Positions 2,934-35,843 of a stretch of 64,000 nt of DNA are shown one piece after another; position 1 is the first letter of the stretch, and the number at the start of each line of letters is the position of its first letter. The notes below the pieces were generated by a model. It saw only the letters and a program-made list of their open reading frames with translations. It did no database searches and was not told the DNA's origin. The translations under genes and the position numbers were made by a program. This DNA is from Rariglobus hedericola (lineage in GTDB: Bacteria > Verrucomicrobiota > Verrucomicrobiia > Opitutales > Opitutaceae): contig NZ_VMBG01000001.1 in assembly GCF_007559335.1 (NCBI RefSeq), forward strand, positions 1,612,001 through 1,676,000, given 5' to 3'.

Positions 2934-3001
2934 GGGAACGCGCTCGCGGCACGGGTGGCGCACAGCTAGCGGCCGACACCCGATCAGCGCCGAATACCGA
3001 T

Positions 3002-4416: not shown

Positions 4417-5879
<1,463 letters not shown>

Positions 5880-18627: not shown

Positions 18628-20273
18628 GGTAATTCGAGAATAAATTCGGCGCCGCCGCCCGCTCGTGGCGAATGACTCAACTCTCCGCCCATCCCGCGTG
18701 CAAGTTGACGCGCGATGCTCAAGCCCAGGCCCGCGCCGTCCCTTTCCCTCGTCAGCGTTTCGTCCACCCGGTGGAATTTATGGAAAATACGACTGCGATG
18801 CTCCGCCGGCACGCCGGGCCCGCGATCACTCACGCGCACCTCCGCGCCACCGCCCGCCCGCATGATCAGTGACACAGTCACTTCGCCTCCATCCGCCGCG
18901 TATTTGCAGGCGTTATCAATGAGGTTGATCACGATCTGTCCGACCGCGTCGCGATCCGTCTTCACCACGCCGCCCGCTTCAGGGAAATCCCTTAGCAACG
19001 TCAACCCCGACTCGGCTACACGGGGCGCATGCATATCGCACAACGCCGCCAACTCCGCCACCAGATCAATCTCTGCAAGTTCGAACCGCTTTTGCCCCTG
19101 CTCCAGCCGGCTGAAATCCAAAACATTGTTCACCAACCGCGCCAACCGCTGCGTCTCGCGTCCGATAGTGCGGAGGTAGTCCTGCCGCTTTCCCTCGTCG
19201 GGCACACGCCCCTGCTCCAGCAATTCCGAATAAAGCCGGATGGTCGTGAGCGGAGTTTTAAATTCGTGGGACACATTCGCGACGAACGAGATTTTTTGCA
19301 CCGCCTCCTCTTCGCTGCGCCGCGCGTGCCGCAATAACAGCGTGCCGCCCACCAGAATCGCCGAGACCAAGGTTCCCGCCAAAACCCCGCTCAACGCCAT
19401 CAAAACTCCGTTGGAAATCTGAGTCGATTCGCTCTCCTCCAAAAACCCCACCACCTCCCACCCCGGCAGCACCGCCTCCGAGACCGGCACAGTGATCAGA
19501 GGCGTGCGTGCCGATACCGCGCGGTCCTGCGAGGACAGCATCTTCTGCGTATACACCGCCCCTCCGATTTCACGCAGTTCGTAAATTTCACCCGGTTCGC
19601 GATCCGCCGGAAGCACATCCCCGAGACGCGCCGCGATCTGCGAAAGCTCCACCTCGACGCCGATCACCCGCCCAAACGTCAACCGTCGCCAGCCGATCAA
19701 GTGCAAGCTCCCGCCACTCTCACGCGACGGCACCCAGCCGGTCCGCTGCGGAGAACCCACCGCCCCACCCTTGAGTTTGGCGGTTACATTGAATTCGTTG
19801 CGCAATGCGTTCACTTGAGACGCGTTTGAACCCGACCAGTCTTGTTGCGCAACAGGAGCGGCGGCCTGCGACGATGTTTGATTCTTGGCAGCCTCCAACT
19901 CGATCAAACGCGCCATCCTTTCTTTTTCCTCACCCGTGGACGTGTGATTGATGGTCGCTTTAACCAACGGGTTCGTGCGTTTCCATTCGGCAAGATAGCC
20001 GTCCAGCCTGGACTCGTCTTCGGGTGCTTCGAGCAGCGTCGCCATCAACCCGCTCTGCACATCGCCGACCAGCAGCTCCACATTTTCCGCGATGAGCCGC
20101 GCCCGCGCACCGACGGCCGCCTGACGTGTTTCCACCGCCGCGCGCGTCTGCTCATCCAGCCGCGCCTGTTCACGCCCCAACAACCACAACACGCCGCCGC
20201 CCACCGCCAGCGTCGGCAGCAGGAGAAGCACCCAGTAAAGCAGCACGCGCCGCGAGCCGGAGGTCATAGGCAT
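18624..20273 (-). CDS. Sensor histidine kinase
   Basis: Membrane kinase of 549 aa. A transmembrane helix near the N-terminus (VLLYWVLLLLPTLAVGGGVL) and another around residue 300 (GVLAGTLVSAILVGGTLLL) enclose a large periplasmic sensor without a recognised domain. No HAMP is apparent; the second helix is followed almost directly by HisKA (FVANVSHEFKTPLTTIRLYS) and the ATPase domain (RVSDRGPGVP, GAGLGLSIARQLARGMGG). I use the ATG at 20273; a TTG at 20303 also opens the frame. It is the second-last gene of the run that begins with the Wzz-like genes. Confidence 0.92.
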   Translation of the reverse strand: MPMTSGSRRVLLYWVLLLLPTLAVGGGVLWLLGREQARLDEQTRAAVETRQAAVGARARLIAENVELLVGDVQSGLMATLLEAPEDESRLDGYLAEWKRTNPLVKATINHTSTGEEKERMARLIELEAAKNQTSSQAAAPVAQQDWSGSNASQVNALRNEFNVTAKLKGGAVGSPQRTGWVPSRESGGSLHLIGWRRLTFGRVIGVEVELSQIAARLGDVLPADREPGEIYELREIGGAVYTQKMLSSQDRAVSARTPLITVPVSEAVLPGWEVVGFLEESESTQISNGVLMALSGVLAGTLVSAILVGGTLLLRHARRSEEEAVQKISFVANVSHEFKTPLTTIRLYSELLEQGRVPDEGKRQDYLRTIGRETQRLARLVNNVLDFSRLEQGQKRFELAEIDLVAELAALCDMHAPRVAESGLTLLRDFPEAGGVVKTDRDAVGQIVINLIDNACKYAADGGEVTVSLIMRAGGGAEVRVSDRGPGVPAEHRSRIFHKFHRVDETLTRERDGAGLGLSIARQLARGMGGELSHSPRAGGGAEFILELP

Positions 20274-20277
20274 GGGA

Positions 20278-20355
20278 TTACGGGGTGTTCTCCGACAACA
20301 CAACGCCGAGCTGACGCGCCCGTTCGCGATAAGGGAGCAAGTCGCGGTCGTTCAT
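20278..20355 (-). CDS. Possible 25-codon ORF between Wzz-like gene and kinase
   Basis: An ATG overlaps the stop of the Wzz-like gene (ATGA at 20352-20355) and runs 25 codons to a TAA, ending 4 bases before the kinase ATG. The product would be MNDRDLLPYRERARQLG followed by 8 residues. The tight packing on both sides suggests it is translated, perhaps only to couple the genes, but length gives no statistical support. It is not in the kinase frame. Confidence 0.3.
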   Translation of the reverse strand: MNDRDLLPYRERARQLGVVLSENTP

Positions 20356-21290
20356 ACCTGACACGCCGCAGTCTTTTCGGAAACAGCCCTGCGTTTGAAT
20401 ATGACGGCAGCAAGCACGCCTGTCATGACCGCAATCGCCGCACCCCACGCCGCGGTGACGATCAACGGTGCCAGCAGATATTCACCTTCGTCGGGAGTCG
20501 TCGGCAACAGGCTGATTCGCCAAGCGTCCGCCTCATACTTTTCCAATGCCTGCATACGGGCGATTCGGTCAAAATTCATTTTGTCCATCTTATACAAACC
20601 CTTCTCCTCATCTGCATTTTTGACCAACACCTGATATTGTTTATCCTTTTCCAGTTCATCGCCTCTCAATTCCGATCGACTTTCTCGATAAGTAACGACC
20701 GCACGCTCGCAGTTCTGAACCTGCTGCTCCATCTCCTCCACCCGCTTTTGATAATAAGCGATATCTGCGTCAGAAATTCGCCCACTTGCATTGGAAGCCA
20801 CGGCCTCTTGCAGAAAAAAATCAACGATTCGCGTAGCTAGATAGCGGTCGGGGTGACGGTAACGTATCTCCACCGTCCTCGTCTTTGAGTCGATTACCAG
20901 AATCCGGTTGGCCAAAATCCGTCGATTAATGAAATCGTCTGAATCATCCGCCAATCCATAAGGCCAAAAAAAAGCCTTCCGATCTTCGACCGAAAAACGG
21001 TCGATCACGAGTGATTGCATTTTTCTCGAATTCAAAACCGCGTGTGCCGTGTCTATGTTTGCCCTACTTCTATCAACGAAGAATGAAAAGACGGTGGGCA
21101 CCATGTCCACATGATCCCGAATCTGTGTTCTAGGAATCTCCAGTGCCCCACGGGCTTCATACAAACGCGTCTGTCCCGAAACATAGATCGCGGTGGCGAT
21201 CATGATGACGAAGAAAACCCACCCGAAGATATGCCAATCAAATCGGATCACCCAGTAGCGCATCGAAAGGGGTATCGAATTGATCTTCAT
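20352..21290 (-). CDS. Wzz-like membrane protein (chain-length determinant type)
   Basis: Protein of 312 aa with a helix near the N-terminus (HIFGWVFFVIMIATAIYV), a large periplasmic part with the Wzz-like HPDRYLATRIVDFFLQEAV segment, a coiled coil (about 175-215), and a C-terminal helix (AAWGAAIAVMTGVLAAVIF). A proline-rich stretch (LLPTTPDEGEYLLAP) precedes the last helix, as in polysaccharide co-polymerases. No glycosyltransferase, polymerase or kinase domain is nearby, so its role in polysaccharide length control is only inferred. Its ATG overlaps the rhodanese gene stop. Confidence 0.8.
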   Translation of the reverse strand: MKINSIPLSMRYWVIRFDWHIFGWVFFVIMIATAIYVSGQTRLYEARGALEIPRTQIRDHVDMVPTVFSFFVDRSRANIDTAHAVLNSRKMQSLVIDRFSVEDRKAFFWPYGLADDSDDFINRRILANRILVIDSKTRTVEIRYRHPDRYLATRIVDFFLQEAVASNASGRISDADIAYYQKRVEEMEQQVQNCERAVVTYRESRSELRGDELEKDKQYQVLVKNADEEKGLYKMDKMNFDRIARMQALEKYEADAWRISLLPTTPDEGEYLLAPLIVTAAWGAAIAVMTGVLAAVIFKRRAVSEKTAACQV

Positions 21291-21835: not shown

Positions 21836-21939
21836 GGGTAGTAGTGGTTCGCCAGCAGTGAACCACAAATAGCCCCGTCAGTTGTCAGCCGAACATAAGG
21901 AAGTTGTCAGGAGATTGTCAGGCCACACGGGCTCATCAG

Positions 21940-22350: not shown

Positions 22351-23241
22351 TCAGTGTGCGTCCGCCCATCCGCGCTTTCGCGTAAAAAAAGTCCTCACTC
22401 CCACCGCCAAAAGCCCGCCAACCACGGCCAGTGCAAATCCCACCGCCAAGCACTTCGCAATGGGTGCGATCAAGTAGTCGGCTTCATCAGGAGGCACTGC
22501 CTTTTTATTAGGACGCCAAAACTCCGTCACCGGGCCCGAGATCATCGAAATATCGCGCATTCTCATGATGAGCTTATCCAGCAAATTTTCCTCATTCGTG
22601 TGCCGTTGCTGCATCGCCTCAAAACCCTGATCCGCAACAAACGCAGCCCCTGTAGTTTTTTCGCTTCTCTCACGGTAGGCCGTCATCGCCTCCGCCAGTT
22701 CTTGCACGTGCCGCTGCTGCGCCTGCACTCGCGGCTTCAGTTCCTCCACCTCCTTCATCGACTCATCAATTCGCTTCCGCGCCTGATAGCCGATCACTTC
22801 ATCCACCAGCACACTCACCACCCGCGCCGCGACCAACCGGTCCGGATGCTGAAACTCAATGGTCAACTCGCCCTTCACCCCATCAAAGGAAACCCGCTGG
22901 TTTGCTCCCATCACCTGCTCGATAAACATCGCCGCCGCCTGCTCCGATTGAGCGGCATAAGGCGCGATGAATCCGGTTCTCTCCTCTTCGCTCATCCGCT
23001 CGATTGCACGACGAATAAGTTCGGGTGATTTGAGCGCCAACCGCAGCTCATTCCAGTCCCATCCTGACAGGCGCGCCTCACGCTCCCCTGTAATTATTGC
23101 ACGATGACATTTCAACGTCCCGATCGCCTCATGCCAACGCGGTTGCCTCACCACATGTATAACTGCCACCACCATAATCGCAGTAAAAACCAGGCCAAAA
23201 ATCCACAGGTCAGACTTAACGAGAGAGTGTAAAAGGTTCAT
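22351..23241 (-). CDS. Wzz-like membrane protein
   Basis: Protein of 296 aa, paralogue of the product of 20352-21290. N-terminal helix LWIFGLVFTAIMVVAVIHV, periplasmic domain with FQHPDRLVAARVVSVLVDEV, a coiled coil around residues 160-195, the pre-helix segment AVPPDEADYLIAP, and C-terminal helix VGFALAVVGGLLAVGV. It is the first gene of the run leading to the two-component system. Its substrate is unknown. The gap to the VWA gene is 66 bases, on the same strand, so partial co-transcription is possible. Confidence 0.8.
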   Translation of the reverse strand: MNLLHSLVKSDLWIFGLVFTAIMVVAVIHVVRQPRWHEAIGTLKCHRAIITGEREARLSGWDWNELRLALKSPELIRRAIERMSEEERTGFIAPYAAQSEQAAAMFIEQVMGANQRVSFDGVKGELTIEFQHPDRLVAARVVSVLVDEVIGYQARKRIDESMKEVEELKPRVQAQQRHVQELAEAMTAYRERSEKTTGAAFVADQGFEAMQQRHTNEENLLDKLIMRMRDISMISGPVTEFWRPNKKAVPPDEADYLIAPIAKCLAVGFALAVVGGLLAVGVRTFFTRKRGWADAH

Positions 23242-23307
23242 AGAATAAGCCCCGACAGGGCACCAATCAGTGAACCTTAAAAAACGCCGCCGGTTGTCAG
23301 CGGCGCG

Positions 23308-24492
23308 TCATGGAGTTGTCAGAGATTTGTCAGCCGAGGCCAGTTTGATACCGTGCTGTGCCGCCCATTGGCCGAGTTCCCGCTTCGCGAGCGCGGCGGC
23401 CATCAACGCAGGGAAATGATCCGGCGTGCAGGCGAACACCGGCACTCCCAACGCCGCATACGCTGCCGCATTTCTCGCGTCATACGAGGGACGTCCATCG
23501 TCGCTCAACGCCAGTAGCGCGATCATGCGCACACCCGCCAGCACAAGTCGGGCGACCGTCTTGATCATCTGCGCTTGATTGCCGCCTTCAAACAAATCGC
23601 TAACCAGCACGAGCACCGTGTCGGCCGGACGCGTCATCAGACCTTCGCAATACACAAGCGCACGGTGGATGTCCGTGCCACCACCCAACTGGGCACCGAA
23701 GAGTAGATCAACCGGATCGCGAAGATCGGCGGTCAGATCCACCACCGCTGTATCAAACACCACCATGCGCGTGCTCACTGCGGGCAACGACGCCAGCACC
23801 GCGCCGAAGATCGATGAATACACCACCGACGTCGCCATCGATCCGCTTTGATCCACACACAGGATAACATCCCGCAAAGAGGCGCGCTTCCTCCCGTAAC
23901 CGATCAGCTTCTCCGGAATGATCGTGCGCTGTGCCGGTTGATAATGACGCAGGTTCGCCTGAATCGTCCTCGCCCAATCGATCTCGCGCAAACGCGGACG
24001 GTTGTTGCGCACATTGCGCGCCAGCGCTCCGCCTACCGCCTGCCTCATCGGCTCGGCCAGCCGGCGCAGGATTTCATCCACGATGCGACCCACCACCAGA
24101 CGAGCGGTCTCCCGCGTCTTTTCCGGCATGGCACGATTGAGCGAGATAAGGGTCGCCGCCAGGTGCACGTCGGGCTCCGCGGCTGAAAGCATCTCCGGCT
24201 CAAGCAACAACTGCTTCAAGTCGAGTCGATCCATCGCATCGCGCTGCAGAATACTCACCACGCTGGATGGGAAAAAGCGCCGTATGTCACCCAACCAACG
24301 CGCCACCTGGGGTGCACTGGCCCCGAGCCCGCCCCGCTGCGACTTCGGGTGCTCGCCGGCCTGATACAACGCACCGAGAGCTTCATCCATGCGCGACTCT
24401 TCCAACGAAAGTTCAACCTCCAACGAGGTCGCACTCTCTTCGCCTAGCACCAGCCGCCACCGCCGAGCCTCCTCTGTGTTTAAGGTTTTCAT
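23308..24492 (-). CDS. VWA-domain protein of the MoxR cluster (YehP-like)
   Basis: Protein of 394 aa. The N-terminal ~200 residues are helical; the C-terminal half is a von Willebrand A domain with an intact metal site: DQSGS in ILCVDQSGSMATS, the threonine in GGGTDIHRAL, and the aspartate in LVSDLFEGGN. There is no signal peptide. VWA proteins of this kind are the partners of MoxR ATPases (as in RavA-ViaA or NorQ-NorD). It is the last gene of the six-gene operon, overlapping the DUF5682 gene by 4 bases. From memory it resembles E. coli YehP in size and context; a search would settle this. Confidence 0.9.
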   Translation of the reverse strand: MKTLNTEEARRWRLVLGEESATSLEVELSLEESRMDEALGALYQAGEHPKSQRGGLGASAPQVARWLGDIRRFFPSSVVSILQRDAMDRLDLKQLLLEPEMLSAAEPDVHLAATLISLNRAMPEKTRETARLVVGRIVDEILRRLAEPMRQAVGGALARNVRNNRPRLREIDWARTIQANLRHYQPAQRTIIPEKLIGYGRKRASLRDVILCVDQSGSMATSVVYSSIFGAVLASLPAVSTRMVVFDTAVVDLTADLRDPVDLLFGAQLGGGTDIHRALVYCEGLMTRPADTVLVLVSDLFEGGNQAQMIKTVARLVLAGVRMIALLALSDDGRPSYDARNAAAYAALGVPVFACTPDHFPALMAAALAKRELGQWAAQHGIKLASADKSLTTP

Positions 24493-26783
24493 GATGCGTT
24501 TCGAGAAACTGTGGAAAGTCCGAGCAACCGCGCCGTCATATCCACCGCAGGTCTCGCCCGCGTTTCGTCGAGCACCAGGGTGCCGGCGTCGGCCGCCACG
24601 CGCCCTCCTACCCCACCTGCGCCCAGTTGCGCCACCGACTGCCCGATCTGGCCTCGTTCGGGTCCGGTGAAGCGACTGAAGGTCCGCCGCAACAACGGCA
24701 GCACTGCTTGAAAATAATCCGCCGGCACGCGACTCAACCAGGCATGCAACAAGCCCAGCAGTTCAGGATCGTGCACCAACACTGCCCCGCCGCCGCTCAA
24801 AAACCCGTCCAACCACGCCGCCGCCGCATCGGGCGTCTGGGCCGCCGACAGCGCATGAGAAAGCCGCGTGGCCGCCTCGTCGCCTTCGAGTGCGTCCGCA
24901 TCCCGCTGCATCCGCGTGCAAAGTCCGCGCAGCAACGGATGCGCCGAACCGTGTTCCATGATCCGGCGCGTAACCGCTCTCCACTCCTCCGCCAGCGCGG
25001 CGTCCTCTAGCAGACGAATCGCTTCGTCGTGCCCTCCGATCAACTTCGCAAGCGCCTCCGCCGCCTCATCCGCAAGGCCCGACACGGACGCCGGCAGCTC
25101 CACATGCGCACGGGTCGCCAGACCCGTGACGATGGCCCGCACCTGATTCAAATCCGTCTGCCGCACGCTCCCGTAGCGGGCCAGCCGTGCCAGCGGTGCG
25201 ATGGCGCGAAGCAATCCCGGCGGGTCATCAACCATCGCTGCGGCCGCTTGCACCCGCCCCAAAATGACTTCACCCGCGCCGGGTAACTCCGCCAGCAACG
25301 CGTGCTCCAGTAATGTCACGAGATTCTCCAGCGTCGGATCGGCCGCTGCGGCACGCACCAGCCGGGCTTCGGCGGCGGCAACCAGCGTATTGCCGAACGA
25401 CGATGCATCCACAACCGCGAGCACCATATCCGCCTCCCACTTGAGCGACCATTGCTCTTTAAATGTGCCCTTGCCCCCGCGCGTGTCCGCCTTGCGCCCC
25501 CAGTTGATCTTCACCGCCAGCAGGCGATGCAAAAACACGCTGCGCGCCCGTCCTCCCGGCTCGCGCAGATCGAGTTCCAGTGGAGTCACGCTCGCCGTCG
25601 GTTTCAACCGCAGCGTCTTCTGCTGCCGCTCAATGTCTTCCTGCAAAGGCAGCTGCGCGAGCCCCTCCGGCAGTTCGCCCAACCGCTCGCCAATCAAGAG
25701 CGGTCTTCGCAACAAACTCAGCGCCATCGGATCGCCTTCGCAAAACACCGCGCGCATCGCCTCCAGCGTCTCGGGCAGTCCCGGCTTCGGCCGCCCCCGT
25801 AATCCCGCCAAAGCCTCCGCCAGCCGCACCGCCTCGATGGAGTTCGCACTCGATGCCGACATATCCGCCTCACGCAGCACCCGTGCAGCCTTCGTCATCC
25901 AACGCACCGTCGTATCGCTCCCGCCCTGCCAAAGATGCTCATACCAGCCGGGCGATTCGATGCCCGCTCCATAGCCGCTGGCCGTCGCCAGCCGTTCATA
26001 AGTCCACGGTGCCCACGTCGCGCGCACCTTCGTCTTGGGCAACCCCTTCAACAATGCCGCGTCGTCGGACGCACGCACCGTCCGGCGCAGCGCCGGCACG
26101 TGCCACGCCCCGCAGACGACCGCGATGTTCTGTGCGCCGGATTTTTCCGCCTCGCGGATGCCCCGCCGCATCCACGCCTCGCGCCGTAGGTCGCGCTCCG
26201 ATTCCGGTAATGCCAGCTCGGTGCGCAATGCCGTCAGCGCCTCCGCCACCGCCGCAAACAAATCGCCGTCATGCTCGCGCTCCTCCACGCGATCGTTCCA
26301 CCAACGTTCGCCGTCGCTGTAACCATCCGCCTTGGCCAGCCATTGCAACGGATCATGACGCGCGGAACCCGGCTCCTCCGTTTCCCGAACCTCTGACTCC
26401 GCCTCCTTCGTGTTCTCGGCGTTCGCAGCGGCGGCCGCCTCCGCGCGAGCCTGCTCCTTCGCAGCGTCGATTCCATAATGGTGCGCGCACGGCAGGTCGA
26501 GGAACCGCATCGTGACCGCGTTCGCCGCAGCCCATTTCATCGCCTGCCACTCGGGCGAAAACTCCGCGAAGGGATAAAACGCCGCGCGACGCGGACTCTC
26601 CGCATCGTAAACCAAAATCGCCACCGGCGGCTTCAACGACGCATCGGCCACCGCACCCATTAATTCGTCCGCATCCGGCGGCCCCTCGATCAGGACAAGA
26701 TCGGGCCGCAACGCATCGAGCGACTTCACCAGGCTGCGTGCGCAACCCGGTCCATGGTGACGAATGCCAAAAACCGTCGTCAT
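24489..26783 (-). CDS. DUF5682 protein (YehM-like)
   Basis: Protein of 764 aa. It opens with the family motif FGIRHHGPGCARSL (H9, H10) and IEGPPDADE (E33), and later has VVCGAWHVPAL. This set of motifs resembles the TraB/TIKI/EreA/ChaN group, where such His and Glu residues form a metal or active site; that link is my inference. The rest is largely helical with alanine-rich repeats. No signal peptide is seen. It overlaps both neighbours by 4 bases. Confidence 0.85.
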   Translation of the reverse strand: MTTVFGIRHHGPGCARSLVKSLDALRPDLVLIEGPPDADELMGAVADASLKPPVAILVYDAESPRRAAFYPFAEFSPEWQAMKWAAANAVTMRFLDLPCAHHYGIDAAKEQARAEAAAAANAENTKEAESEVRETEEPGSARHDPLQWLAKADGYSDGERWWNDRVEEREHDGDLFAAVAEALTALRTELALPESERDLRREAWMRRGIREAEKSGAQNIAVVCGAWHVPALRRTVRASDDAALLKGLPKTKVRATWAPWTYERLATASGYGAGIESPGWYEHLWQGGSDTTVRWMTKAARVLREADMSASSANSIEAVRLAEALAGLRGRPKPGLPETLEAMRAVFCEGDPMALSLLRRPLLIGERLGELPEGLAQLPLQEDIERQQKTLRLKPTASVTPLELDLREPGGRARSVFLHRLLAVKINWGRKADTRGGKGTFKEQWSLKWEADMVLAVVDASSFGNTLVAAAEARLVRAAAADPTLENLVTLLEHALLAELPGAGEVILGRVQAAAAMVDDPPGLLRAIAPLARLARYGSVRQTDLNQVRAIVTGLATRAHVELPASVSGLADEAAEALAKLIGGHDEAIRLLEDAALAEEWRAVTRRIMEHGSAHPLLRGLCTRMQRDADALEGDEAATRLSHALSAAQTPDAAAAWLDGFLSGGGAVLVHDPELLGLLHAWLSRVPADYFQAVLPLLRRTFSRFTGPERGQIGQSVAQLGAGGVGGRVAADAGTLVLDETRARPAVDMTARLLGLSTVSRNAS

Positions 26784-29700
26784 ACCTCCGCACTCCCTTC
26801 ATCCACCGCCGCGACGATGCCGGCGATGGCCTTCAGGTCTCCCACCGTTTCCGAATACACCACGGGCGGCACGTCACCAAAGGCCAGCACGCGCACGTCG
26901 CCCGCCTGCGGATCGTCATACGTGTAACTGCCGCGCTTCACGCTGTCCGCACGCACGAAGCGCGCCGCACCCAGCGTGATCGTCTCCATCGGATCCACGC
27001 CGATGTAGAGTCCTTCGATTTCGAGCGACACTTCCACACCCGCGCCGGGAAACGCCTTGAAATATCCGGCCACCCCGCCCGCATCGACCACCGATCCGCG
27101 CATCCAGCCGCGTCGTTCCGCCCGCGAACGGAATGTGCCCGCGCCTACGGACCGATCCTTGGCCACGGCCAGTTCGCGCCGGTTCGCATGCAGCGGATCA
27201 AGCCTCTCAACCGCCCGATCCAGTTGCGGAAACGGAGGCGTCACCTTGAAGCGCCCCAAGTGCGCGCGCCAGGCCGACACCGCCTCGGTCTCCAGTTCCA
27301 GCGGATGCACCATCCCGATGCATGCATCCTTCTCGGGCAGTTCCTCCAACGCGCCCGCCGCATCCGCGAGCAGCCCGTTCGGATAACGACGGAAGCACCG
27401 CAGCAACGCGCCGTCGATTCCATACACGCCCCACACCAGACGCGTGGCATACGCCCGCAGCACCGGATGGGTTTCATACAGTTCGCGCCACCGCGCTACC
27501 GGCCAACGCCGCTGCCGCACGAGCGCGAGTTCCAGCCGCACCGCCTGCCCCTTGGCGGCCTCGCGAAGCAGTTTCCCGAGTTCCTTAACCTCGGCCTTGA
27601 GTGCATCGGGAGCGGACGTCGGCAATCCCTTAAGCGTCTTGTCCGAATCGGGATCGGACCAACTCAACTTCAGCTCGACGCCCAGTTCCGCCCGCGCCAT
27701 ACCGCCCTCCCAGGCAAAATCACGCACGCCTTCCGCATCGAAGCCAAACGTCGGCACGACCACGTCGCCCAGTTCATCCGCCGACAGGCCGCGCGCCGCG
27801 GCCGCCGCCTGAAACGCCTGCGCCGCCGCCGTGCCGATGTTGCGCTGCTTGCTGCGATACCGCGTCGCCAATGCGTCGAGCAACATGAGCGCCTCGTTGC
27901 TCCCCTGAAGCGCGATGGCCTGCGCCGCATATTCCGCGAGTTTTCCACGCGACGCCTCGCACCACTTTGGTATCCAGGAATTCAACACCGACAAAATCCG
28001 CGTGTCGCCGAGCACTCCCGCCACCGCCAGCGCCCAACGATCCTTCGCGTCCTGCGGAGAAACCAGCCACGCGTTCAGGATCCCGAGCGCAAAGTCCCCG
28101 GACCGCGCCCGGTCGAGCTGCGACAGCACGCCGTTCAGATCGGGAGCGGCTTCAATCGCCTTGTGCGCAGCCTGCGTCGCCAGCACATGCGCAATCACAG
28201 CCTCCCCTACCCGCACACCTTCGGCTCCGTAAAGCGGCGGCAACACTGTCACGTCGATCCAACCAGCTCCCGGTGTCTTCGTCACACGCTTCTGCCCTGC
28301 GAGTCGTTTCTCCAGCTCCGCCAATCCGGCCGGCAATGCGGCCGTTCCAGCGACCACCGGCCCCGCTCCCTTCACTCCCAGGGCTTCACGGATCGCCGCG
28401 CGCACTGCGGACGACTTCTCCGCCTCAAGGGCGGCCCCCAATGCGACGATCACCTTGGGATCGTCAATTTGGTTCAACAAGGCGACTGCACCGAGCCGGC
28501 TATCCGCCTTGCGTGAACCGAGACGCTCGATCGCAGGCCAGAGCGCCTCTTTCCCCATTACGTGAAACAACGCCCCTGCGGCATGGGCACGAATCTGCTT
28601 CGACGAATCGGCCAGACACTCCCACCAAGCGGCGACAAACCACGCCGGCCGATGCTGCGCCAAAACCGCGAGAATCGGCTCGCGCTCGTTGACCACCGTC
28701 ACCGTAGCGAGCAGTCCAAGACTAAGCTCAGTCGCTTTCGGCGCTACGTCCTCCGACGCGTGGACGACCAACGCCTTTACAGCCGCTTGCTTCCCTTGCC
28801 AGCTGGACTCACTCAACAACGCGAACACTTCTGCGCCCCCAGTCGAAAGTGCGCGAGCAGCCGCGGCATAACCGGCCTCATATTGTTCCGGTCCGACATA
28901 CGGATGCCCCTGATAAAGCTTTCGCTTCAGTATCTCACCCAATACACCCACCGCGAGTTTCGGAGCGCTTTCGGCAAGCATTTCGAGCAAAGCAGGAGAT
29001 GCGGAGATCTCTGGTCGGGCCGCATACTTCAGGAAATCAGGATGATGCTTTATCCCGCGTAGTTTGATCAGGTCCACCAAAACCTCCGCCTGATTTGCGG
29101 GCGTCGGACACTGCTCCATATAAAGAATGCCATCCGCATCAAACAATGCGTTGCCCGCGATTAATGCGTTGATCCGCTTCGGTTCGATCTTAGCCAAGCC
29201 CCCGTTGACGGCCACGGCTTGATCGAGCCAGAACCGGGCGTCGGCCGGACGTTCCATCGCCACGGCTGTCAGCAAGTATTGGCACAAACCGTCGTCCACA
29301 TCGATTGCGTCGCTCAGCTCCGCCTGACTTAGGCCCAAAATATACGTCTCAAATGTGGTAGGCCGCAACGGCGGGCGGCCAGGCCGGTCCCAACCGCGCA
29401 CCCAGCCGCTGAACGAACTCGAATAAGATGTCCACGAGATCAAATTCATCAGGTCGTCGATGTGCTGCAAGGGCTTCAAAACTATCTCCAGAAGCTTTCG
29501 CCCCTCTGCCTCAACCCCTTCGCTTTCCCGATCCACCACAACACGCATCACACCGTCGATGAGGCCATGAAAATTAGGCCAGCGACGACTCGGATGCGCC
29601 GCATAAAGTCCCGCCGCGAATTCAGCCACACGTTCTTCGATAACGCCCCACGGATAAGTCGCCCCCACGCGGCGGCCCAACTTGTTTATTTCTTCCGCAT

Positions 29701-29851
29701 GTGACGGAGTGGCAATGCGCGTGATCCACGCAAAATCTCCGGATTCGATGAACGCCTGAAGGCACTTGGCAAACTCCACGTCTTCGCTCTTCGCACTCGC
29801 GGCGAGACGTTGGATATATTCCGGCAAGGACAGATCGTCGTTCTTCGACAT
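26780..29851 (-). CDS. DUF4132-domain protein (YehI/MolR-like)
   Basis: Large protein of 1023 aa, mostly helical, probably HEAT-like repeats in the middle (about 430-640). The C-terminal third is the DUF4132 region, with THPVLRAYATRLVWGVYG, ACIGMVHPLELE, AWRAHLG and PPFPQLDRAVERL, ending in a beta-rich part. It has no membrane segment. The function of the family is unknown. It starts 38 bases after the MoxR gene, the only gap in the operon, and overlaps the DUF5682 gene by 4 bases. Confidence 0.85.
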   Translation of the reverse strand: MSKNDDLSLPEYIQRLAASAKSEDVEFAKCLQAFIESGDFAWITRIATPSHAEEINKLGRRVGATYPWGVIEERVAEFAAGLYAAHPSRRWPNFHGLIDGVMRVVVDRESEGVEAEGRKLLEIVLKPLQHIDDLMNLISWTSYSSSFSGWVRGWDRPGRPPLRPTTFETYILGLSQAELSDAIDVDDGLCQYLLTAVAMERPADARFWLDQAVAVNGGLAKIEPKRINALIAGNALFDADGILYMEQCPTPANQAEVLVDLIKLRGIKHHPDFLKYAARPEISASPALLEMLAESAPKLAVGVLGEILKRKLYQGHPYVGPEQYEAGYAAAARALSTGGAEVFALLSESSWQGKQAAVKALVVHASEDVAPKATELSLGLLATVTVVNEREPILAVLAQHRPAWFVAAWWECLADSSKQIRAHAAGALFHVMGKEALWPAIERLGSRKADSRLGAVALLNQIDDPKVIVALGAALEAEKSSAVRAAIREALGVKGAGPVVAGTAALPAGLAELEKRLAGQKRVTKTPGAGWIDVTVLPPLYGAEGVRVGEAVIAHVLATQAAHKAIEAAPDLNGVLSQLDRARSGDFALGILNAWLVSPQDAKDRWALAVAGVLGDTRILSVLNSWIPKWCEASRGKLAEYAAQAIALQGSNEALMLLDALATRYRSKQRNIGTAAAQAFQAAAAARGLSADELGDVVVPTFGFDAEGVRDFAWEGGMARAELGVELKLSWSDPDSDKTLKGLPTSAPDALKAEVKELGKLLREAAKGQAVRLELALVRQRRWPVARWRELYETHPVLRAYATRLVWGVYGIDGALLRCFRRYPNGLLADAAGALEELPEKDACIGMVHPLELETEAVSAWRAHLGRFKVTPPFPQLDRAVERLDPLHANRRELAVAKDRSVGAGTFRSRAERRGWMRGSVVDAGGVAGYFKAFPGAGVEVSLEIEGLYIGVDPMETITLGAARFVRADSVKRGSYTYDDPQAGDVRVLAFGDVPPVVYSETVGDLKAIAGIVAAVDEGSAEV

Positions 29852-29889
29852 AGGAAAACAGATCGGATTTTACTCAGGATTCGCCTCTT

Positions 29890-30972
29890 TCACTTCATCT
29901 GATCCCGGCACGCGCGATACAGGTCTTTCCAGCCGTCGCGTTCCTTGACGACAGTCTCGAGGTATTCGCGAAAAACCACCGGATCCTGCACCGGATCTTT
30001 CACAATCGCACCCACCATGCTGGAGGCGATGTCGGCGGCCTTCAGCGTGCCGTCGCCAAAATGCGCGGCGAGCGCGAGTCCGCTCGTCACCACGCTGATC
30101 GCCTCCGCCGTGCTCAGCGTGCCGCTCGGGCTCTTCACCTTCGACTTGCCGTCCTCTGTCGAACCGCTGCGCAACTCACGGAAAATCGCCACCACGCGGC
30201 GGATCTCCTGCAACGCCGGCGGCTGCGCCGGCAGCGAAAGCGCCTTGCTCATCGAGGCAACCCGCTGGCTCACAATCGCCACTTCTTCGTCGATGGTCGC
30301 AGGCAGCGGAAGCACCACGACGTTGAAGCGCCGCTGCAACGCGCTCGACAGCTCGTTCACGCCGCGGTCGCGGTTGTTCGCAGTGGCGATCACGTTAAAC
30401 CCCTTCGCGGCCAGCACCTCGCGGCCGAGCTCGGGCACGGGCAGGGTTTTCTCGGAGAGAATGGTGATTAACGTATCCTGCACGTCGGAAGGCATGCGCG
30501 TCAGTTCCTCGACCCGGCACAGGCGCCCTTCACGCATCGCCCGCATGATCGGACTCGGCACCAGCGCGGCGTCGCTCGGCCCCTCGGCAATGAGTCGCGC
30601 GTAATTCCATCCGTAACGCATCGCCTCCTCACCCGTGCCCGCCGTGCCTTGCACCAGCAAGGTCGAGTCGCCGCTGATCGCCGCCGCGAGGTGCTCCGAC
30701 ACCCAGCTCTTCGCCGTGCCGGGCACGCCGAGCAACAACAGCGCCCTGTCCGTCGCCAACGTGGACACCGCCACCTCGATGGTGCGCCGGTCGCCGATGT
30801 ATTTCGGCGTGATCACCGTGCCGTCGGCGAGCGTCTTGCCGAGCAGGTAGTCGGTCACCGCCCACGGCGACAATTTCCACTGCGGCGGACGCGGACGGTC
30901 GTCCTGCGCCCCGAGGGCGGTGAGTTCGTGGGCGTAGTCGGTCTCGGCGTGGGCGCGCAGCGCGGTGTTCAT
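29890..30972 (-). CDS. MoxR-family AAA+ ATPase (YehL-like)
   Basis: ATPase of 360 aa. Walker A is GVPGTAKSW (about residue 90). Walker B reads LCRVEELTRMP, with Glu where most MoxR proteins have Asp, followed by DVQDTLITILSEK. Sensor 1 is FNVIATANNRDRG and the arginine-finger region is LSSALQRRFNVV. MoxR ATPases remodel partners, often for cofactor insertion, together with a VWA protein, here encoded three genes downstream. The ATG at 30972 overlaps the DUF5691 gene stop; the frame is open much further upstream but overlaps that gene. Confidence 0.92.
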   Translation of the reverse strand: MNTALRAHAETDYAHELTALGAQDDRPRPPQWKLSPWAVTDYLLGKTLADGTVITPKYIGDRRTIEVAVSTLATDRALLLLGVPGTAKSWVSEHLAAAISGDSTLLVQGTAGTGEEAMRYGWNYARLIAEGPSDAALVPSPIMRAMREGRLCRVEELTRMPSDVQDTLITILSEKTLPVPELGREVLAAKGFNVIATANNRDRGVNELSSALQRRFNVVVLPLPATIDEEVAIVSQRVASMSKALSLPAQPPALQEIRRVVAIFRELRSGSTEDGKSKVKSPSGTLSTAEAISVVTSGLALAAHFGDGTLKAADIASSMVGAIVKDPVQDPVVFREYLETVVKERDGWKDLYRACRDQMK

Positions 30973-32492
30973 GATGGAATGGAAACGGTGAAGGCTTGAT
31001 GGACTTGCTGACGAAATTCGATGGCTCGCAAGAGTTCCTCCGCCGGTGAGGACAGTTCGGACAGCGCGGCGAGCCGGCGCACCGCCTCGCCCGCCGTCGC
31101 CAGCGGCAGACGGCGGGCGAGCTCCCGGGCGTGGTTCGATTGCAGGCGGGGATACGGCTTGGCCTGAAACGCCGCCAGACAGCGTTGTAGCGCCTCCCGC
31201 GCGGCGGCATCCGGCAGGTGAAACCTCGTGCAAAACAACAACTCGAAATACAGCCCCTCGCCCGCATCCGTCGCCGGCACGGCGGCCAGCACGCGCGCGC
31301 CCGCCTCGGGATCGAGCACCGTCAACAAACGCGGCAACACCTCGGCAGGCGACGGCGCGGCCTTGGGCCAGTCGGCGAGTCCGATGAGATGCAGTGCAAA
31401 TGCCTCTGCGTTTTCCTTCTCCGGCGCGGCGGTCGCCGCGTCGATCCAACCGAGCAAAATGATCTCGCGCCACTCGTCGTCACGATTGAGTGCGAAGAGT
31501 TTTTCCACACCCACATCAAGCCGGCTCGTCCACGCGGAGAGCGGCACGCTCGCAATCCATTGCCGCGCCCAGAACGCTCGCGGCCCCGTGCCCGCCGGTG
31601 GTTTTTCTTCGATTCCGTCCGCCTTCCACGCGGCGTCAAAAGTCTCCGGCAGGCGTAACGCAAGCCGGCGCATCATCAGCATGCCCTCAATCACGACCAT
31701 GGAGGCGACCAGTGTCCGCGCCCGCTGGGAAAACGCCGATTCGGGCAGTCTCAGCAGACTCGCGCGCGCGGACAACCGCACCTCGCGGCGGCGATCACGC
31801 AGCGCCTCGCCCTCGAGTAGCGCAACGTCCTGCGACGTCGGTGCCTCGGCCAACACCGTGGTGAAACGCTCGCGCTCCTCACCCGTGGCCCCCGCCCAGG
31901 CCTTGGCCAGCGCCTCCGCCGCGCGAGTCGGATCGCTGGCGCGGGTTTGCCTCAGCCAGGCGATCCGCTCGGACAACTCTCCCGTCTCCCACGCCGTGTC
32001 CTCGACCTTCGCGGTTTCAAGCACCCGCCGCCACTCGTCGGCACGACGCGCCAGCCACACACCTCGCTCGCCCAACACCGGCAGCACCGCCTCGCGCAAG
32101 GAGCGTTCCCGCGAGGCCACTCGCAGGAGCGCCGGCAAATCACGAAAACGCACCCGGCATTTGCGCGCCGCCGCCAAGGCAAGCCACTCGGACAGCACTA
32201 CCGCGTGCTCACCCGCCAGCATGCGCCGCAGCAATGCGGACGCGCCCGCCGGACACGCAGACAAGCTTTCCTCCGGCGCTGGATCGGGCTCGGGTGCAGA
32301 GTCTTTCACGGCCACCGCCCCTGCACCTCGCGCCGAGGCAACCAGCGCCATCGCCGAGAGCGCGGCGGTTTCGCGTGCCGTCCAGTCCAATCCCGCCCAC
32401 GCCTCGGCCAGCACCGGATGCGGCGCGGACGGCGGCGCAGTCATGCGTTCGGTGCCCAGCAAGGTGAGGATGCTGAAGGGATCGCGGTTCAT
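30969..32492 (-). CDS. DUF5691 protein
   Basis: Protein of 507 aa, helical and rich in Ala, Arg and Leu, with repeated armadillo/HEAT-like helices. The start MNRDPFSILTLLGTERM is the family opening and fits the ATG at 32492, which overlaps the SWIM gene stop; upstream in-frame codons are not used. It has no signal peptide or catalytic motif that I can see. It occurs in such MoxR/SWIM clusters and may be a scaffold; its function is unknown. Confidence 0.82.
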   Translation of the reverse strand: MNRDPFSILTLLGTERMTAPPSAPHPVLAEAWAGLDWTARETAALSAMALVASARGAGAVAVKDSAPEPDPAPEESLSACPAGASALLRRMLAGEHAVVLSEWLALAAARKCRVRFRDLPALLRVASRERSLREAVLPVLGERGVWLARRADEWRRVLETAKVEDTAWETGELSERIAWLRQTRASDPTRAAEALAKAWAGATGEERERFTTVLAEAPTSQDVALLEGEALRDRRREVRLSARASLLRLPESAFSQRARTLVASMVVIEGMLMMRRLALRLPETFDAAWKADGIEEKPPAGTGPRAFWARQWIASVPLSAWTSRLDVGVEKLFALNRDDEWREIILLGWIDAATAAPEKENAEAFALHLIGLADWPKAAPSPAEVLPRLLTVLDPEAGARVLAAVPATDAGEGLYFELLFCTRFHLPDAAAREALQRCLAAFQAKPYPRLQSNHARELARRLPLATAGEAVRRLAALSELSSPAEELLRAIEFRQQVHQAFTVSIPS

Positions 32493-33847
32493 CGTTCCAG
32501 ATTCTGCCGGGTGAGCGGCACCCACTCGTCGCCATCCGCAACCGCAAGGGGATCGAGTGCCTCGCCATCCCAAAGCACGGACATCGACGCAGCGTGCCCG
32601 CCGGTGATCGCCAGCAGCAGATCCCGCGTGTCCTCATCGGCGCTCAAGGGCAATGCGTCGCCACATGCATCGAGCAACGCGGCACCGCCCCCGCGCAAAA
32701 CGCCGAGACGCGCCGAAATCAGGACAGGCACCCGCGTGCGCCACGGGTTGAGCGCAAGCCCCGACGCATAGCGGACCAGCAAGCCCTCGATCGATTCCTC
32801 GCCGGGCGATTCTTTTTGCGCGGGGTTCGCCTGCGGATCAGAGCGCCATAAGGCGCGCAACGGTTCGACTCCCGGATAAAAACACAGTTCGCCGGTCAAA
32901 CTCCGGCCAGGCGGCCAGGTATCCACCGCCGGCTGCACCAGCGGACTCGTCCGGACCAGCTGAGCCCAGCGTCCGCTCGTCGATCCGCGCAACCAGGTAT
33001 TGGAGACGACCAGACGATCTTCTTCGCGCACAGTGCGCGCGGCGACGAACCAAGTGTCTTGCACCGGCGTCCCCGCCAACACCTGTTCCTGAGGCAGTGT
33101 CCAGCCGACCTGTTGTTCCAGTTCGATGCGCAGATCTTCGTCACATGCCTCGCGCTTCGCGTAGGCGACGAGCAGGAGGTGCAACCGTCCGAGATGCTCG
33201 GCGAGCCCGGCCTCCCACCCCGCACCGCCTCGCGCCGTCTCGGCGGCGTAACGCAGGCGGCGCGCCAAGCCGGTCGCCTGCGCATCGACCATGCGGCGGA
33301 TGATGTCGTCCCACGCGGCATGGGCGTTGAGTCCGGAATCGGCGAGGCCGCGTCGCGCCAAATCGGCCAGCCACTGCGAAAGCAACGCCACGCCGTCGTC
33401 CACGCGTCCGGCGCGCTTTTCCTGACGCTTTGCCTTCGCGGCTTCGTCAACTGGAGTGGCCGCGCCGGTGGCTTTTTGCTCGGCGCGTTCCTTGCTTTTT
33501 TCCTGGCGCTCGGCACGGCCTTCCAACCATTCGACCAGCCAGGCAGGACGGTTTTTATCGGTGAGCGCAGCGGGTGTGGTCGCCGCAATGAAAAGCAACC
33601 CGAGCGCGTGTTTGCAGGGGAATTTACGACTCGGACACGAGCACTTGGTGGACAACCCGTCGAGAGCAACGCGGGTTTGATACGGCTCTTTGCCTGATCC
33701 TTGGGCGAGTCCCCACAGTGCATCCGCGTCGGCACCCAAAAGCGTCCATTTGCGAGGTGCAGCCAGATCCCGGCCAGCCTTCAGCGACGCCGCATCCGGT
33801 GCCAGTGCGGTGATTTGATCGGGTGTGGGAAGGGCGGCCACGCGCAC
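32489..33847 (-). CDS. SWIM zinc-finger protein (YehQ-like)
   Basis: Protein of 452 aa. The SWIM finger CxCx(n)CxH is present: C69, C71, C78 and H80 in KCSCPSRKFPCKHALG, predicted to bind zinc and possibly DNA or protein. A lysine/glutamate-rich linker follows (about 110-150), then a helical domain and a beta-rich C-terminus. It is the first gene of the six-gene operon and begins with GTG at 33847; no better start is near. The gatB stop lies 62 bases upstream. Confidence 0.88.
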   Translation of the reverse strand: MRVAALPTPDQITALAPDAASLKAGRDLAAPRKWTLLGADADALWGLAQGSGKEPYQTRVALDGLSTKCSCPSRKFPCKHALGLLFIAATTPAALTDKNRPAWLVEWLEGRAERQEKSKERAEQKATGAATPVDEAAKAKRQEKRAGRVDDGVALLSQWLADLARRGLADSGLNAHAAWDDIIRRMVDAQATGLARRLRYAAETARGGAGWEAGLAEHLGRLHLLLVAYAKREACDEDLRIELEQQVGWTLPQEQVLAGTPVQDTWFVAARTVREEDRLVVSNTWLRGSTSGRWAQLVRTSPLVQPAVDTWPPGRSLTGELCFYPGVEPLRALWRSDPQANPAQKESPGEESIEGLLVRYASGLALNPWRTRVPVLISARLGVLRGGGAALLDACGDALPLSADEDTRDLLLAITGGHAASMSVLWDGEALDPLAVADGDEWVPLTRQNLER

Positions 33848-33909
33848 GGAGCGTGTGTGCTAGCGCGACAGGATCAAGTTTTTGCCGGCTGCTTGCGCAA
33901 AGAATTTAA

Positions 33910-35364
<1,455 letters not shown>

Positions 35365-35388: not shown

Positions 35389-35428
35389 GTCACGGAGACG
35401 GAAGGAGGTTGCACAGAGCGTCACAGAG
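35389..35428 (+). repeat. 40-bp inverted repeat, copy 1 (flank of GxxExxY gene)
   Basis: This 40-base segment matches, in inverse orientation, 35799-35838 at 34 of 40 positions. The inner 19 bases differ at one position only (TGCACAGAGCG then CACAGAG). It overlaps the last codons of the GxxExxY gene and ends 25 bases upstream of the gatB start. Confidence 0.85.
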
Positions 35429-35798
35429 CGAGGCGACGGAGGCCACGTGTGAGGACGGTAGAGCGGAAGTTCATCAAGAGGCCCACATGGCAGTTAGAGA
35501 ATTTGAGATAAGTCAGCACCTGTGAATCGTGGATTTCTAAAAGCGACTCGACGGTTTTGATTTCAACCACGACCACTCCGTTGATCAGGAAGTCCAAACG
35601 ATAGGCGTCCTCGATTAAGAGATCTTTGTATTTAATCGGGCAGAGCTTTTGTTCCTCGAAAGGCACATTCCGCAACATCAACTCATGCGCCAGCGCACGT
35701 TGGTAAGCTGACTCCAAAAGCCCGGGCCCCAGCTCACGGTGAACCTCAATGGCCGCCCCAATCACCTGCTCGGTAAGTGCATTGATCTCGGTATTCAT
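35421..35798 (-). CDS. GxxExxY protein
   Basis: Protein of 125 aa with the motif GPGLLESAY that names the family, and a PD-(D/E)XK-like core: DFLINGVVVVEIKTVESL, then TYLKFSN and GLLMNF. It is a nuclease-like fold of unknown activity. The ATG at 35798 fits the family; the frame is open to 35840. Both ends are bordered by 40-bp inverted repeats, and the gene sits between gatA and gatB, so it looks like inserted cargo. Confidence 0.88.
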   Translation of the reverse strand: MNTEINALTEQVIGAAIEVHRELGPGLLESAYQRALAHELMLRNVPFEEQKLCPIKYKDLLIEDAYRLDFLINGVVVVEIKTVESLLEIHDSQVLTYLKFSNCHVGLLMNFRSTVLTRGLRRLAL

Positions 35799-35838
35799 CT
35801 CTGTGGCGCTCTGTGCATCCTCTTTCTGCCTCTGTGAC
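35799..35838 (-). repeat. 40-bp inverted repeat, copy 2 (flank of GxxExxY gene)
   Basis: Partner of 35389-35428 in opposite orientation. It abuts the GxxExxY start codon on one side and ends 5 bases before the gatA stop codon on the other. Confidence 0.85.
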
Positions 35839-35843
35839 AAAAA

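Follow-up and report, generated by a model that had tools for sequence, protein, structure and literature searches.

Six co-directional genes of Rariglobus hedericola contain a real and widely distributed bacterial gene set, a fixed-order five-gene core (SWIM-DUF5691-MoxR-DUF5682-VWA). The operon appears to specify a machine that is powered by ATP and centred on a protease-like enzyme not previously recognised. It lies within a stretch of 64,000 nucleotides that was analysed as a whole (the window). No known activity, interaction or phenotype was found for the operon proteins. The analysis provides several parts that can be tested, namely H9/H10, E33 and H228 as the predicted active site of DUF5682, a predicted nucleic-acid-binding subunit and a counterpart in E. 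coli, in which an uncharacterised sister version, the yeh cluster, sits in nearly every genome.

Gene anatomy and the five-gene core

The features of the operon are as follows (window positions):

33847-32489, minus strand: SWIM protein, 452 aa (Pfam SWIM, 2.6e-6)
32492-30969, minus strand: DUF5691 protein, 507 aa (Pfam DUF5691, 1.3e-95)
30972-29890, minus strand: MoxR AAA+ ATPase, YehL-like, 360 aa (Pfam AAA_5, 1.2e-38)
29852-29889, minus strand: MoxR/DUF4132 gap of 38 nt, the sole junction without an overlap
29851-26780, minus strand: DUF4132 protein, 1023 aa (Pfam DUF4132, 3.4e-32)
26783-24489, minus strand: DUF5682 protein, 764 aa (Pfam DUF5682, 3.9e-248)
24492-23308, minus strand: VWA (CoxE-like) protein, 394 aa (Pfam VWA_CoxE, 6.7e-54)
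23333-33913, no strand: segment absent from a congener, 10,581 bases here versus 89 bases in genome G359

The open reading frames, coordinates and strand given for 23308-33847 in the original prediction were exact, as were the 38-nt gap and the four 4-base ATGA overlaps (at the SWIM/DUF5691, DUF5691/MoxR, DUF4132/DUF5682 and DUF5682/VWA junctions), and this gene anatomy bears out the single transcription unit that had been proposed. Each protein was assigned by profile search to the family named for it (SWIM, DUF5691, AAA_5 for MoxR, DUF4132, DUF5682 and VWA_CoxE), and all six matches exceed the curated Pfam cut-offs.

The unit is not, however, the complete set of six that had been supposed. 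Among 81 loci picked by similarity to the window DUF5682, 68 hold all five core families, with nine phyla spanned, and 67 of these 68 share one order. The multi-subunit MoxR-VWA machine of the original prediction is probable. DUF4132 is an optional subunit, present in just 14 of the 81 loci and at three different positions; it follows the MoxR/DUF4132 gap in the window operon, in four loci of Verrucomicrobiota and in one of Bacteroidota (L079). Across 200 genomes from the order that includes Comamonas (Burkholderiales), DUF5682 and over-cut-off DUF5691 occur in the identical eight genomes, on the same strand and 1.2-2.0 kb apart. The centre genome (G145) was chosen for having the operon. Among the 199 remaining genomes, the odds of a random match for the 7 concerned are about 5e-13 if shared ancestry is ignored, and the pairing is thus not due to chance. 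The distance matrices of the five core proteins show correlations of 0.74-0.92, against a null maximum of 0.10 that was computed for the DUF5682/DUF5691 pair only. Mean pairwise identity decreases from MoxR (0.72) through VWA (0.62), DUF5682 (0.46) and SWIM (0.38) to DUF5691 (0.25), the fastest diverging core subunit, as expected of a constant motor with divergent adaptors. The operon is patchy, being present in 2 of 13 genomes of the genus and, counting matches over cut-off, in 3 of 145 of the phylum, and a blastn comparison of L118 with the window revealed flanks that are collinear on both sides of the empty site. The patchiness and the empty site show that the operon was either gained or lost.

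Motor, adaptor and candidate hydrolase

The MoxR residues G82, P84-G85-T86, K88, E155-E156, N199 and R215 are each conserved in 79 of 79 aligned sequences, and the VWA residues D214-x-S216-x-S218, T273 and D299 in 78 of 78. The sequence shows that the two consist of a MoxR-type ATPase and a VWA protein whose MIDAS residues are intact, like pairs of the NorQ/NorD type. The VWA protein is proposed to partner the MoxR ring. Among solved structures, the window MoxR is closest in sequence to midasin and next to NorQ. NorQ/NorD, CbbQ/CbbO and CoxD/CoxE pairs adjoin one client enzyme, and nor, cox, cbb and mxa clusters encode client or cofactor genes alongside MoxR-VWA. The window operon resembles these pairs in its MoxR ATPase and in the MIDAS residues of its VWA protein, but differs in having three to four extra subunits and no widely recurring client. 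The NorQD mechanism is described in excerpts of PMC9976466.

The SWIM protein is predicted to comprise a SWIM zinc domain (about 34-90), a helical middle and two OB-like folds (253-345 and 348-441; AlphaFold pLDDT 93.2), a type of fold to which single-stranded nucleic acid often binds. Its Cys69, Cys71, Cys78 and His80 are present in 69 of the 69 other aligned sequences with a letter at these positions. In VIA, residues 6-117 match ZSWIM8 (Z 8.9, 104 residues), which works with a cullin according to the title of 9rwz, whereas in the window protein the SWIM region is followed by the two predicted OB-like folds. The C-terminus matches OB folds (Z 5.3-7.3, in the grey zone), and many of these matches are ssDNA-binding proteins, although the list also includes superantigens, NlpE and tRNA synthetases, whose OB folds are not ssDNA binders. 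A Foldseek search with the whole SWIM model gave nothing below 1e-3 (best E 2.3e-3). The predicted structure suggests that the SWIM protein may be a nucleic-acid-binding adaptor, holding ssDNA or RNA. For DUF5691, structure matches are weak and of the alphaRep/HEAT kind, the best, to 'N5' (9r2o, 4.4e-4), being unexplained, and a HEAT-like adaptor or scaffold is proposed. SWIM-DUF5691 fusions are found in three loci (L033, L072 and the contig-end ORF L088), consistent with the two proteins acting as a joint adaptor.

The original prediction spoke of two large repeat-like proteins. For DUF4132, this holds in the form of HEAT-like repeats beside the DUF4132 domain, with a HEAT_2 match slightly under the cut-off (5.7e-6, 27.0 bits versus 27.7). 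The model of DUF5682 (pLDDT 89.8) has a C-terminal HEAT-like solenoid (about 467-725), but the protein is not merely repeats, because its N-terminal domain (about 1-270) appears to be TIKI/TraB-like. This domain contains the motifs GIRH (6-9), E33, R201-E202 and GAWH (225-228); H9, E33, R201-E202, G225 and H228 are invariant in all other aligned sequences that have a letter at the position in question (82-83), a set that takes in E. coli YehM and three type B proteins. H10, next after H9, is equally invariant, and either histidine is a candidate acting residue. The spacing from GxxH to Glu is 24, as in PrgY, and is followed by an R and the second GxxH. All elements of a TIKI/TraB motif set compiled from PrgY and Ere sequences and from parts of the literature are present: two GxxH motifs, a Glu that follows the second strand, and R-[DE] ahead of the last.

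In VIA, DUF5682 residues 1-240 match a Tetrahymena protein named 'TraB family protein' (7w5z_E; Z 9.2, with 186 residues superposed at rmsd 4.9). This score is only a little higher than the top Z of 7-8 that is usual for models lacking any clear match. The Tetrahymena protein is the only one of the 50 VIA matches listed that spans the N-terminus, and neither erythromycin esterase nor any other solved TIKI fold appears among them. The Tetrahymena protein has Asn and Gln in place of the first His and the Glu of PrgY (weak alignment, E 0.056), and thus supports the fold rather than catalysis. With the whole DUF5682 model, Foldseek returned no match below 1e-3, the list being filled by the solenoid, and a PDB search with the DUF5682 profile gave nothing below 0.14. 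Comparisons of the N-terminus by hhalign with erythromycin-esterase and TraB/GumN profiles were not significant, the profiles being thin (4, later 14, Ere-type sequences and 2 GumN-type sequences). In the local alignment to the 4-sequence Ere profile (E 0.21), GIRHHG fell on the Ere His-Gly motif and IEGP on IEGD, and in that to the GumN profile (E 0.098), GAWHVP fell on the GumN GxxH; the GIRHHG/Ere His-Gly pairing was gone with 14 sequences. Searches of viral contigs for relatives of Ere and PrgY, with which to deepen the profiles, found none. When all 60 members were scanned, isolated matches turned up here and there, one of them to DUF5694 at 0.0034; these were taken as noise.

DUF5682 thus shares with the TIKI/TraB/PrgY/erythromycin-esterase proteins the order and spacing of GxxH...E...R-[DE]...GxxH, a predicted topology and a VIA match, but differs from them in its length of 764 aa, its HEAT-like solenoid, its co-encoded MoxR-VWA and a profile match that is not significant. 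The assignment of its N-terminus as a TIKI/TraB/erythromycin-esterase-like hydrolase is supported by structure and motifs, but not proven, and this predicted hydrolase would probably be a peptidase. DUF5682 could alternatively be a degenerate TIKI scaffold in a regulatory or storage complex without catalysis, with MoxR-VWA assembling a large structural particle; the Tetrahymena TraB match is itself degenerate and, according to a figure legend in PMC10060162, part of complex IV. This reading is very improbable, however, as the putative active-site residues are invariant throughout the aligned set, type B proteins included, which is more than a mere scaffold would need.

The yeh cluster of E. 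coli

The E. coli relatives, originally thought to be scattered, prove to form one contiguous, co-directional cluster, yehI-yehL-yehM-yehP-yehQ, without DUF5691. Both systems contain MoxR, DUF5682, VWA, SWIM and DUF4132 families, with a YehL-like MoxR adjoining DUF5682, VWA_CoxE and SWIM, and four of the E. coli proteins match those of the window (YehL MoxR, 2.1e-73; YehP VWA, 2.7e-72; DUF5682, 2.2e-42; YehI DUF4132, 5.7e-37); between YehQ and the SWIM protein of the window, phmmer found no match at E 10. The order differs, being DUF4132-MoxR-DUF5682-VWA-SWIM in E. coli, with DUF4132 last in genome G078. The window operon is therefore a separate subtype, with DUF5691 added, SWIM first rather than last and DUF4132 optional. 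Two genomes (G182 and G283) seem to hold both types, with a second, lower-scoring DUF5682 beside DUF4132. No published function for the yeh cluster genes was found among open-licence papers; excerpts of PMC3893208 list YehL among the seven MoxR subfamilies that have names.

Proposed action, neighbourhoods and mobility

The possibility that we favour, tentatively, is a self-contained ATP-driven remodelling or hydrolysis machine, in which a MoxR-VWA motor would gate a TIKI-like DUF5682 hydrolase aimed by a SWIM/OB-HEAT adaptor. DUF5682, a putative TIKI/TraB-like hydrolase fused to a HEAT-like solenoid, would be an effector encoded within the operon itself, whereas the SWIM protein and DUF5691 would form the targeting adaptor, carrying the complex to a protein that is misassembled or bound to nucleic acid. 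MoxR, on hydrolysing ATP, would shift the VWA domain, and this movement would open, present or activate the DUF5682 site, with the target then being remodelled or cut. DUF4132 would be an optional HEAT-like scaffold, widening or altering the targeting, and would replace DUF5691 in the E. coli version. If this proposal were true, TIKI-type peptidases would be a new addition to the AAA+-coupled proteases.

It is quite unlikely that the operon represents a new class of ATP-dependent protease, with the MoxR-VWA ring driving a TIKI peptidase and the SWIM-tandem-OB protein loading the ring onto ssDNA or RNA to remove or cut stuck proteins, yeh being a second version. If the protease reading were true, the operon would be a bacterial functional analogue of SPRTN/Wss1 together with p97.

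The neighbourhoods of 80 loci (ORFs of at least 100 aa within 6 kb) contain 631 ORFs and 52 clusters shared by at least two loci. Among the 25 largest of these clusters, which were inspected, no seventh partner recurs widely, and the lack of a widely recurring client gene within 6 kb fits an effector encoded inside the operon. The two largest clusters, with 11 and 10 loci, represent the two-component and ABC-ATPase superfamilies. Aminotransferase V makes up the third, with 5 loci, of which four belong to suf clusters.

These suf genes bear on a somewhat unlikely reading, in which the operon encodes a cofactor-insertion chaperone: like CoxD/CoxE, NorQ/NorD and MoxR, the MoxR-VWA pair would load a metal or cofactor into an enzyme, with the client bound by DUF5682 and the HEAT proteins and zinc handled by SWIM. 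The VWA protein belongs to the CoxE family, and MoxR proteins aid methanol dehydrogenase, NO reductase and CO dehydrogenase, according to excerpts of PMC3893208. In Chitinophaga locus L016, SufB/D, an ABC ATPase, aminotransferase V and SufE (Pfam) lie just upstream on the same strand; two further Chitinophaga loci (L039 and L044) have ORFs related to these genes, and in Flectobacillus (L078) suf genes lie upstream on the other strand. These Fe-S assembly genes nevertheless adjoin just 4 of the 80 loci, all from Bacteroidota and three from one genus, and inspection of recurrent neighbours led to the recognition of no further cofactor gene among those covered. Excerpts of PMC8533742 and PMC4245954 tie the old E. 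coli molybdate gene molR to DUF4132/WGR proteins, but moeA and moeB of D. radiodurans are reported to have been unresponsive when a DUF4132 gene responded. The hydrolase-like motifs kept in DUF5682 also argue against this chaperone, and the metal homeostasis suggested originally has gained a little as a metal-cofactor role from the suf genes.

A role in biological conflict, also suggested originally, has gained little. Excerpts of Kaur et al. 2020 (PMC7159879) describe MoxR-vWA ternary conflict systems, which resemble the operon in combining MoxR and vWA with further components; here, DUF5682 would be a toxic effector and SWIM/OB a sensor of the invader, in an anti-phage or suicide system. The window MoxR matches bpMoxR at 4.2e-5 (23.2 bits, below the cut-off of 27), and the patchy distribution described above is in keeping with such a role, as are 36 matching records in a plasmid collection, some of them chromosome-sized and one beside a type I R-M system. 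We nevertheless consider it unlikely. The Pfam scan of the six proteins gave no match to VMAP, iSTAND, FtsH or a beta-propeller, although Pfam may not model each of these, and neither 'SWIM' nor 'DUF5682' appears in the main text of PMC7159879. The defence library gave no meaningful match, but a single weak PADLOC line (mad8, E 0.034), and no defence family was recognised among the 25 largest neighbour clusters. IMG/VR contains no relative, and the single phage record that matches, an unannotated entry labelled 'Bacteriophage sp.' with 28% identity, may be bacterial DNA. Matches to the E. coli version occur in 5301 of 5426 genomes, 5320 of the 5322 places being chromosomal. In a test of effector variability, 67 of the 68 loci with five families kept one order, in a set selected by DUF5682 similarity.

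DUF4132/WGR genes of D. radiodurans and E. coli have reported links to DNA damage, and LexA control was scanned for because these links suggested it. With three LexA-type patterns, sites were not enriched over shuffles in 67 regions upstream of type A SWIM genes (exact sites 0, 1 and 0 versus shuffle means of 0.24, 0.26 and 0.26; one-mismatch sites 3, 5 and 3 versus 6.4, 6.2 and 5.9), and LexA/SOS control was rejected as a general rule. Among the regions upstream of E. coli yehF, yehH, yehI and yehL, a near match was found at yehF only. The case for foreign origin by composition is weak at best: GC is slightly high in four of the six genes (0.656-0.682, versus a maximum of 0.65 among 18 other window genes), whereas GC3 (0.70-0.86) lies inside the range of these 18 genes.

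The operon and its five-family core

The strand, coordinates and junctions of the six ORFs were as originally predicted, and the family of each protein was borne out by Pfam. NCBIfam gave no above-cut-off match for the operon proteins, and PADLOC returned a single weak line (mad8, E 0.034).

Features of the operon region
22351-23241: Wzz-like gene past the operon end (label by eye; no Pfam match)
23308-33847, minus strand: SWIM, DUF5691, MoxR, DUF4132, DUF5682 and VWA genes
33910-35364: gatB, the operon beginning 62 nt downstream
35421-35840: PDDEXK_3 nuclease-superfamily gene between gatA and gatB

A GTDB genome scan with an alignment of four DUF5682 sequences yielded at least 593 stretches, at least 567 being relatives; the best 80 loci were retained, which biases the set towards the window's subtype. 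With genes called by profiles made from the window proteins, the 81 loci (these 80 plus the window) contained DUF5682 in 81 cases, MoxR in 79, VWA in 76, DUF5691 in 75, SWIM in 70 and DUF4132 in only 14. The expected co-occurrence of six families held for a core of five, complete at 68 of the 81 loci, and failed for DUF4132. DUF4132 disregarded, the genes of 67 of these 68 loci run SWIM-DUF5691-MoxR-DUF5682-VWA along a single strand, the exception being L068, with VWA first. The missing side coincides with a contig end at nine of the 13 incomplete loci; real losses or diverged genes are indicated at L025, L063, L085 and (for VWA) L074, which are incomplete away from any contig end.

Complete loci occur in Verrucomicrobiota, Planctomycetota, Chloroflexota, Thermomicrobiota, Acidobacteriota, Bacteroidota, Actinomycetota, Thermodesulfobacteriota and Pseudomonadota, and the identical arrangement is annotated on plasmids of Deinococcus, Rhizobium and Methylosinus (the last without an annotated VWA gene). 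Among 200 genomes of the Comamonas order, sampled around a genome picked for having the operon, DUF5682 and over-cut-off DUF5691 were found in the same eight genomes, a short distance apart on one strand; a ninth DUF5691 match fell below the cut-off. Five of the 200 genomes have DUF4132, two beside a second, lower-scoring DUF5682 and three without DUF5682. Distance matrices of the five core proteins correlate at 0.74-0.92 (permutation maximum 0.10, one pair permuted). In an automated check with uncurated start codons, a possible start lay -20 to +40 of the preceding stop in 60/65 cases for DUF5682/VWA, 59/68 for DUF5691/MoxR, 41/64 for MoxR/DUF5682 and 39/66 for SWIM/DUF5691, a spacing compatible, in part, with an operon.

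Predicted DUF5682 and SWIM protein structures

The DUF5682 model (60 aligned sequences, mean pLDDT 89.8) has an alpha/beta domain at residues 1-270, in which His9/His10 follow strand 1, Glu33 follows strand 2, Arg201-Glu202 lie on the helix preceding strand 220-225, and Gly225-x-x-His228 lies past that strand. R8, H9, H10, E33, R201, E202, G225 and H228 are invariant in the 82-83 further sequences of the alignment that have no gap at the position, including E. coli YehM and two further type B proteins. PrgY, a pCF10-encoded TraB/GumN protein, has GTAH at 18-21, Glu45, ERD at 190-192 and GQAH at 212-215, and the His-Glu distance is 24 in this protein, the window DUF5682 and YehM alike. VIA (958 chains re-aligned) ranked 7w5z_E, labelled 'TraB family protein' in the PDB, second, with Z 9.2 and an rmsd of 4.9 over 186 residues (model 1-240); it is the only one of the best 50 matches listed to cover the N-terminus. 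A TraB-family fold is among the Tetrahymena complex IV subunits, according to a figure legend (PMC10060162); unlike the window DUF5682, the Tetrahymena protein is without the first His and Glu. Foldseek gave no match below 1e-3 for the model, and profile comparison with the Ere and GumN sets failed. The N-terminal fold is probably of TIKI/TraB type, and a putative hydrolase activity of DUF5682 is slightly favoured. In TIKI-type enzymes, a His-Glu pair is thought to activate water (PMC6254334, PMC7979712).

In the SWIM protein model (49 sequences, pLDDT 93.2), residues 6-117 match ZSWIM8 (Z 8.9), and two further segments, 253-345 and 348-441, match OB folds (Z 5.3-7.3); Foldseek gave no match below 1e-3. 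Taken together, the two OB-like segments resemble RPA70 (1jmc; Z 5.5, 170 residues, rmsd 5.2), and many OB matches are ssDNA-binding proteins (SSB, PriB, RPA, CST, telomere proteins), alongside superantigens, NlpE and tRNA synthetases.

Proposed motor and neighbouring genes

The ATPase residues of MoxR and the MIDAS residues of VWA are intact. In the NorQ/NorD model of PMC9976466, the VWA domain uses a finger to plug the ATPase ring and relays motion to the client via the MIDAS site. By analogy, the window MoxR-VWA pair may work likewise. In the favoured reading, this pair would be the motor, DUF5682 the effector, SWIM-DUF5691 the adaptor and DUF4132 an optional scaffold. Conservation, which ranks motor above effector above adaptors, agrees with this reading, and so does the finding that no client gene is widely shared within 6 kb of the 80 loci. 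The pair might instead load a metal or cofactor into a client enzyme, and suf genes, the sole cofactor-related group recognised in these neighbourhoods, adjoin the operon at four loci, which speaks for such a role. In L016 (Chitinophaga), SufB/D, ABC ATPase, aminotransferase V and SufE (Pfam; 102-5479) share the operon's strand and stop about 440 nt ahead of SWIM; L039 and L044 (both Chitinophaga) have related ORFs on the operon's strand, and in L078 (Flectobacillus) the opposite strand carries SufB/D, ABC ATPase and aminotransferase V. The 631 neighbour ORFs compared gave 52 clusters common to at least two loci, 30 of them to just two.

DUF5682 and DUF5691 are not mentioned in the open-licence literature searched, and none of the papers listed there for yehL, yehM, yehP and yehQ deals with their function; as the search covered few subscription journals, this does not prove absence. 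A LexA link of the operon was tested and not found. The molR gene maps to yehF/yehH. Molybdate (molR) and DNA-damage connections from PMC8533742 and PMC4245954 are leads only.

Subtypes and patchy distribution

The window's subtype (type A) can be distinguished from type B, represented by E. coli yehI-yehL-yehM-yehP-yehQ (contiguous, 2.200-2.211 Mb) and found also in G078 (L086), a member of the window's own family, in G015 (L087) and, going by annotation, on an Iodobacter plasmid. All four type B clusters have DUF4132 and lack DUF5691. Type A DUF4132 proteins form a clade that excludes the E. coli and G078 proteins; the placement of the G015 protein is unsure. SWIM and DUF5691 are fused as a single ORF in L033 and L072, and in L088, where it runs off the contig. 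The Iodobacter cluster, on a mobilizable plasmid (L129 1330-18734), includes DUF4132 twice; IS elements and a set of type I restriction-modification genes lie close by. Three consecutive DUF4132 matches adjoin a second, lower-scoring DUF5682 at G283:C32:96278-102715, which might reflect local amplification of this proposed scaffold gene.

Whereas yehL-Q are near-universal in E. coli (matches in 5301/5426 genomes, at least 80% coverage in 5162), the operon is patchy in the window's genus and phylum: 145 genomes of the phylum gave over-cut-off DUF5682 in three, DUF5691 in two and DUF4132 in six. Within the genus, 2/13 genomes (the window's and G353) have over-cut-off DUF5682, and G361 has a match of 17.8 bits, below cut-off. 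The window's genome and G353 carry the operon at the same site, beside gatB; in G359, only 89 bases lie between collinear flanks at the place of window 23333-33913. GatB identity to the window's is 97% in G359 and 95% in G353. G353 has about 1.6 kb of extra DNA between gatB and operon (L117 14915-16540), one ORF of which was scanned without a Pfam match.

An intergenic 66-nt element occurs twice in the window (21856-21921 and 23268-23333; 73% identical), each copy fronting a minus-strand gene, and the second ends at most 1-2 bases from the operon indel's downstream edge. L117 has a shorter match at 198-241. The element's TTGTCAG heptamers, at 22- and 11-nt spacing, resemble a Pho-box array. 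Two Wzz-like paralogues (20352-21290 and 22351-23241; ~300 aa, 27% identical, 3e-31), both without Pfam match, lie near a histidine kinase gene (18624-20303), and one adjoins a rhodanese-domain gene. The small PDDEXK_3 gene, to which an ORF of G359 is similar (L118 6407-6787), also appears to have been gained or lost among congeners, because gatB and gatA matches lie about 10 nt apart in G352 and G354.
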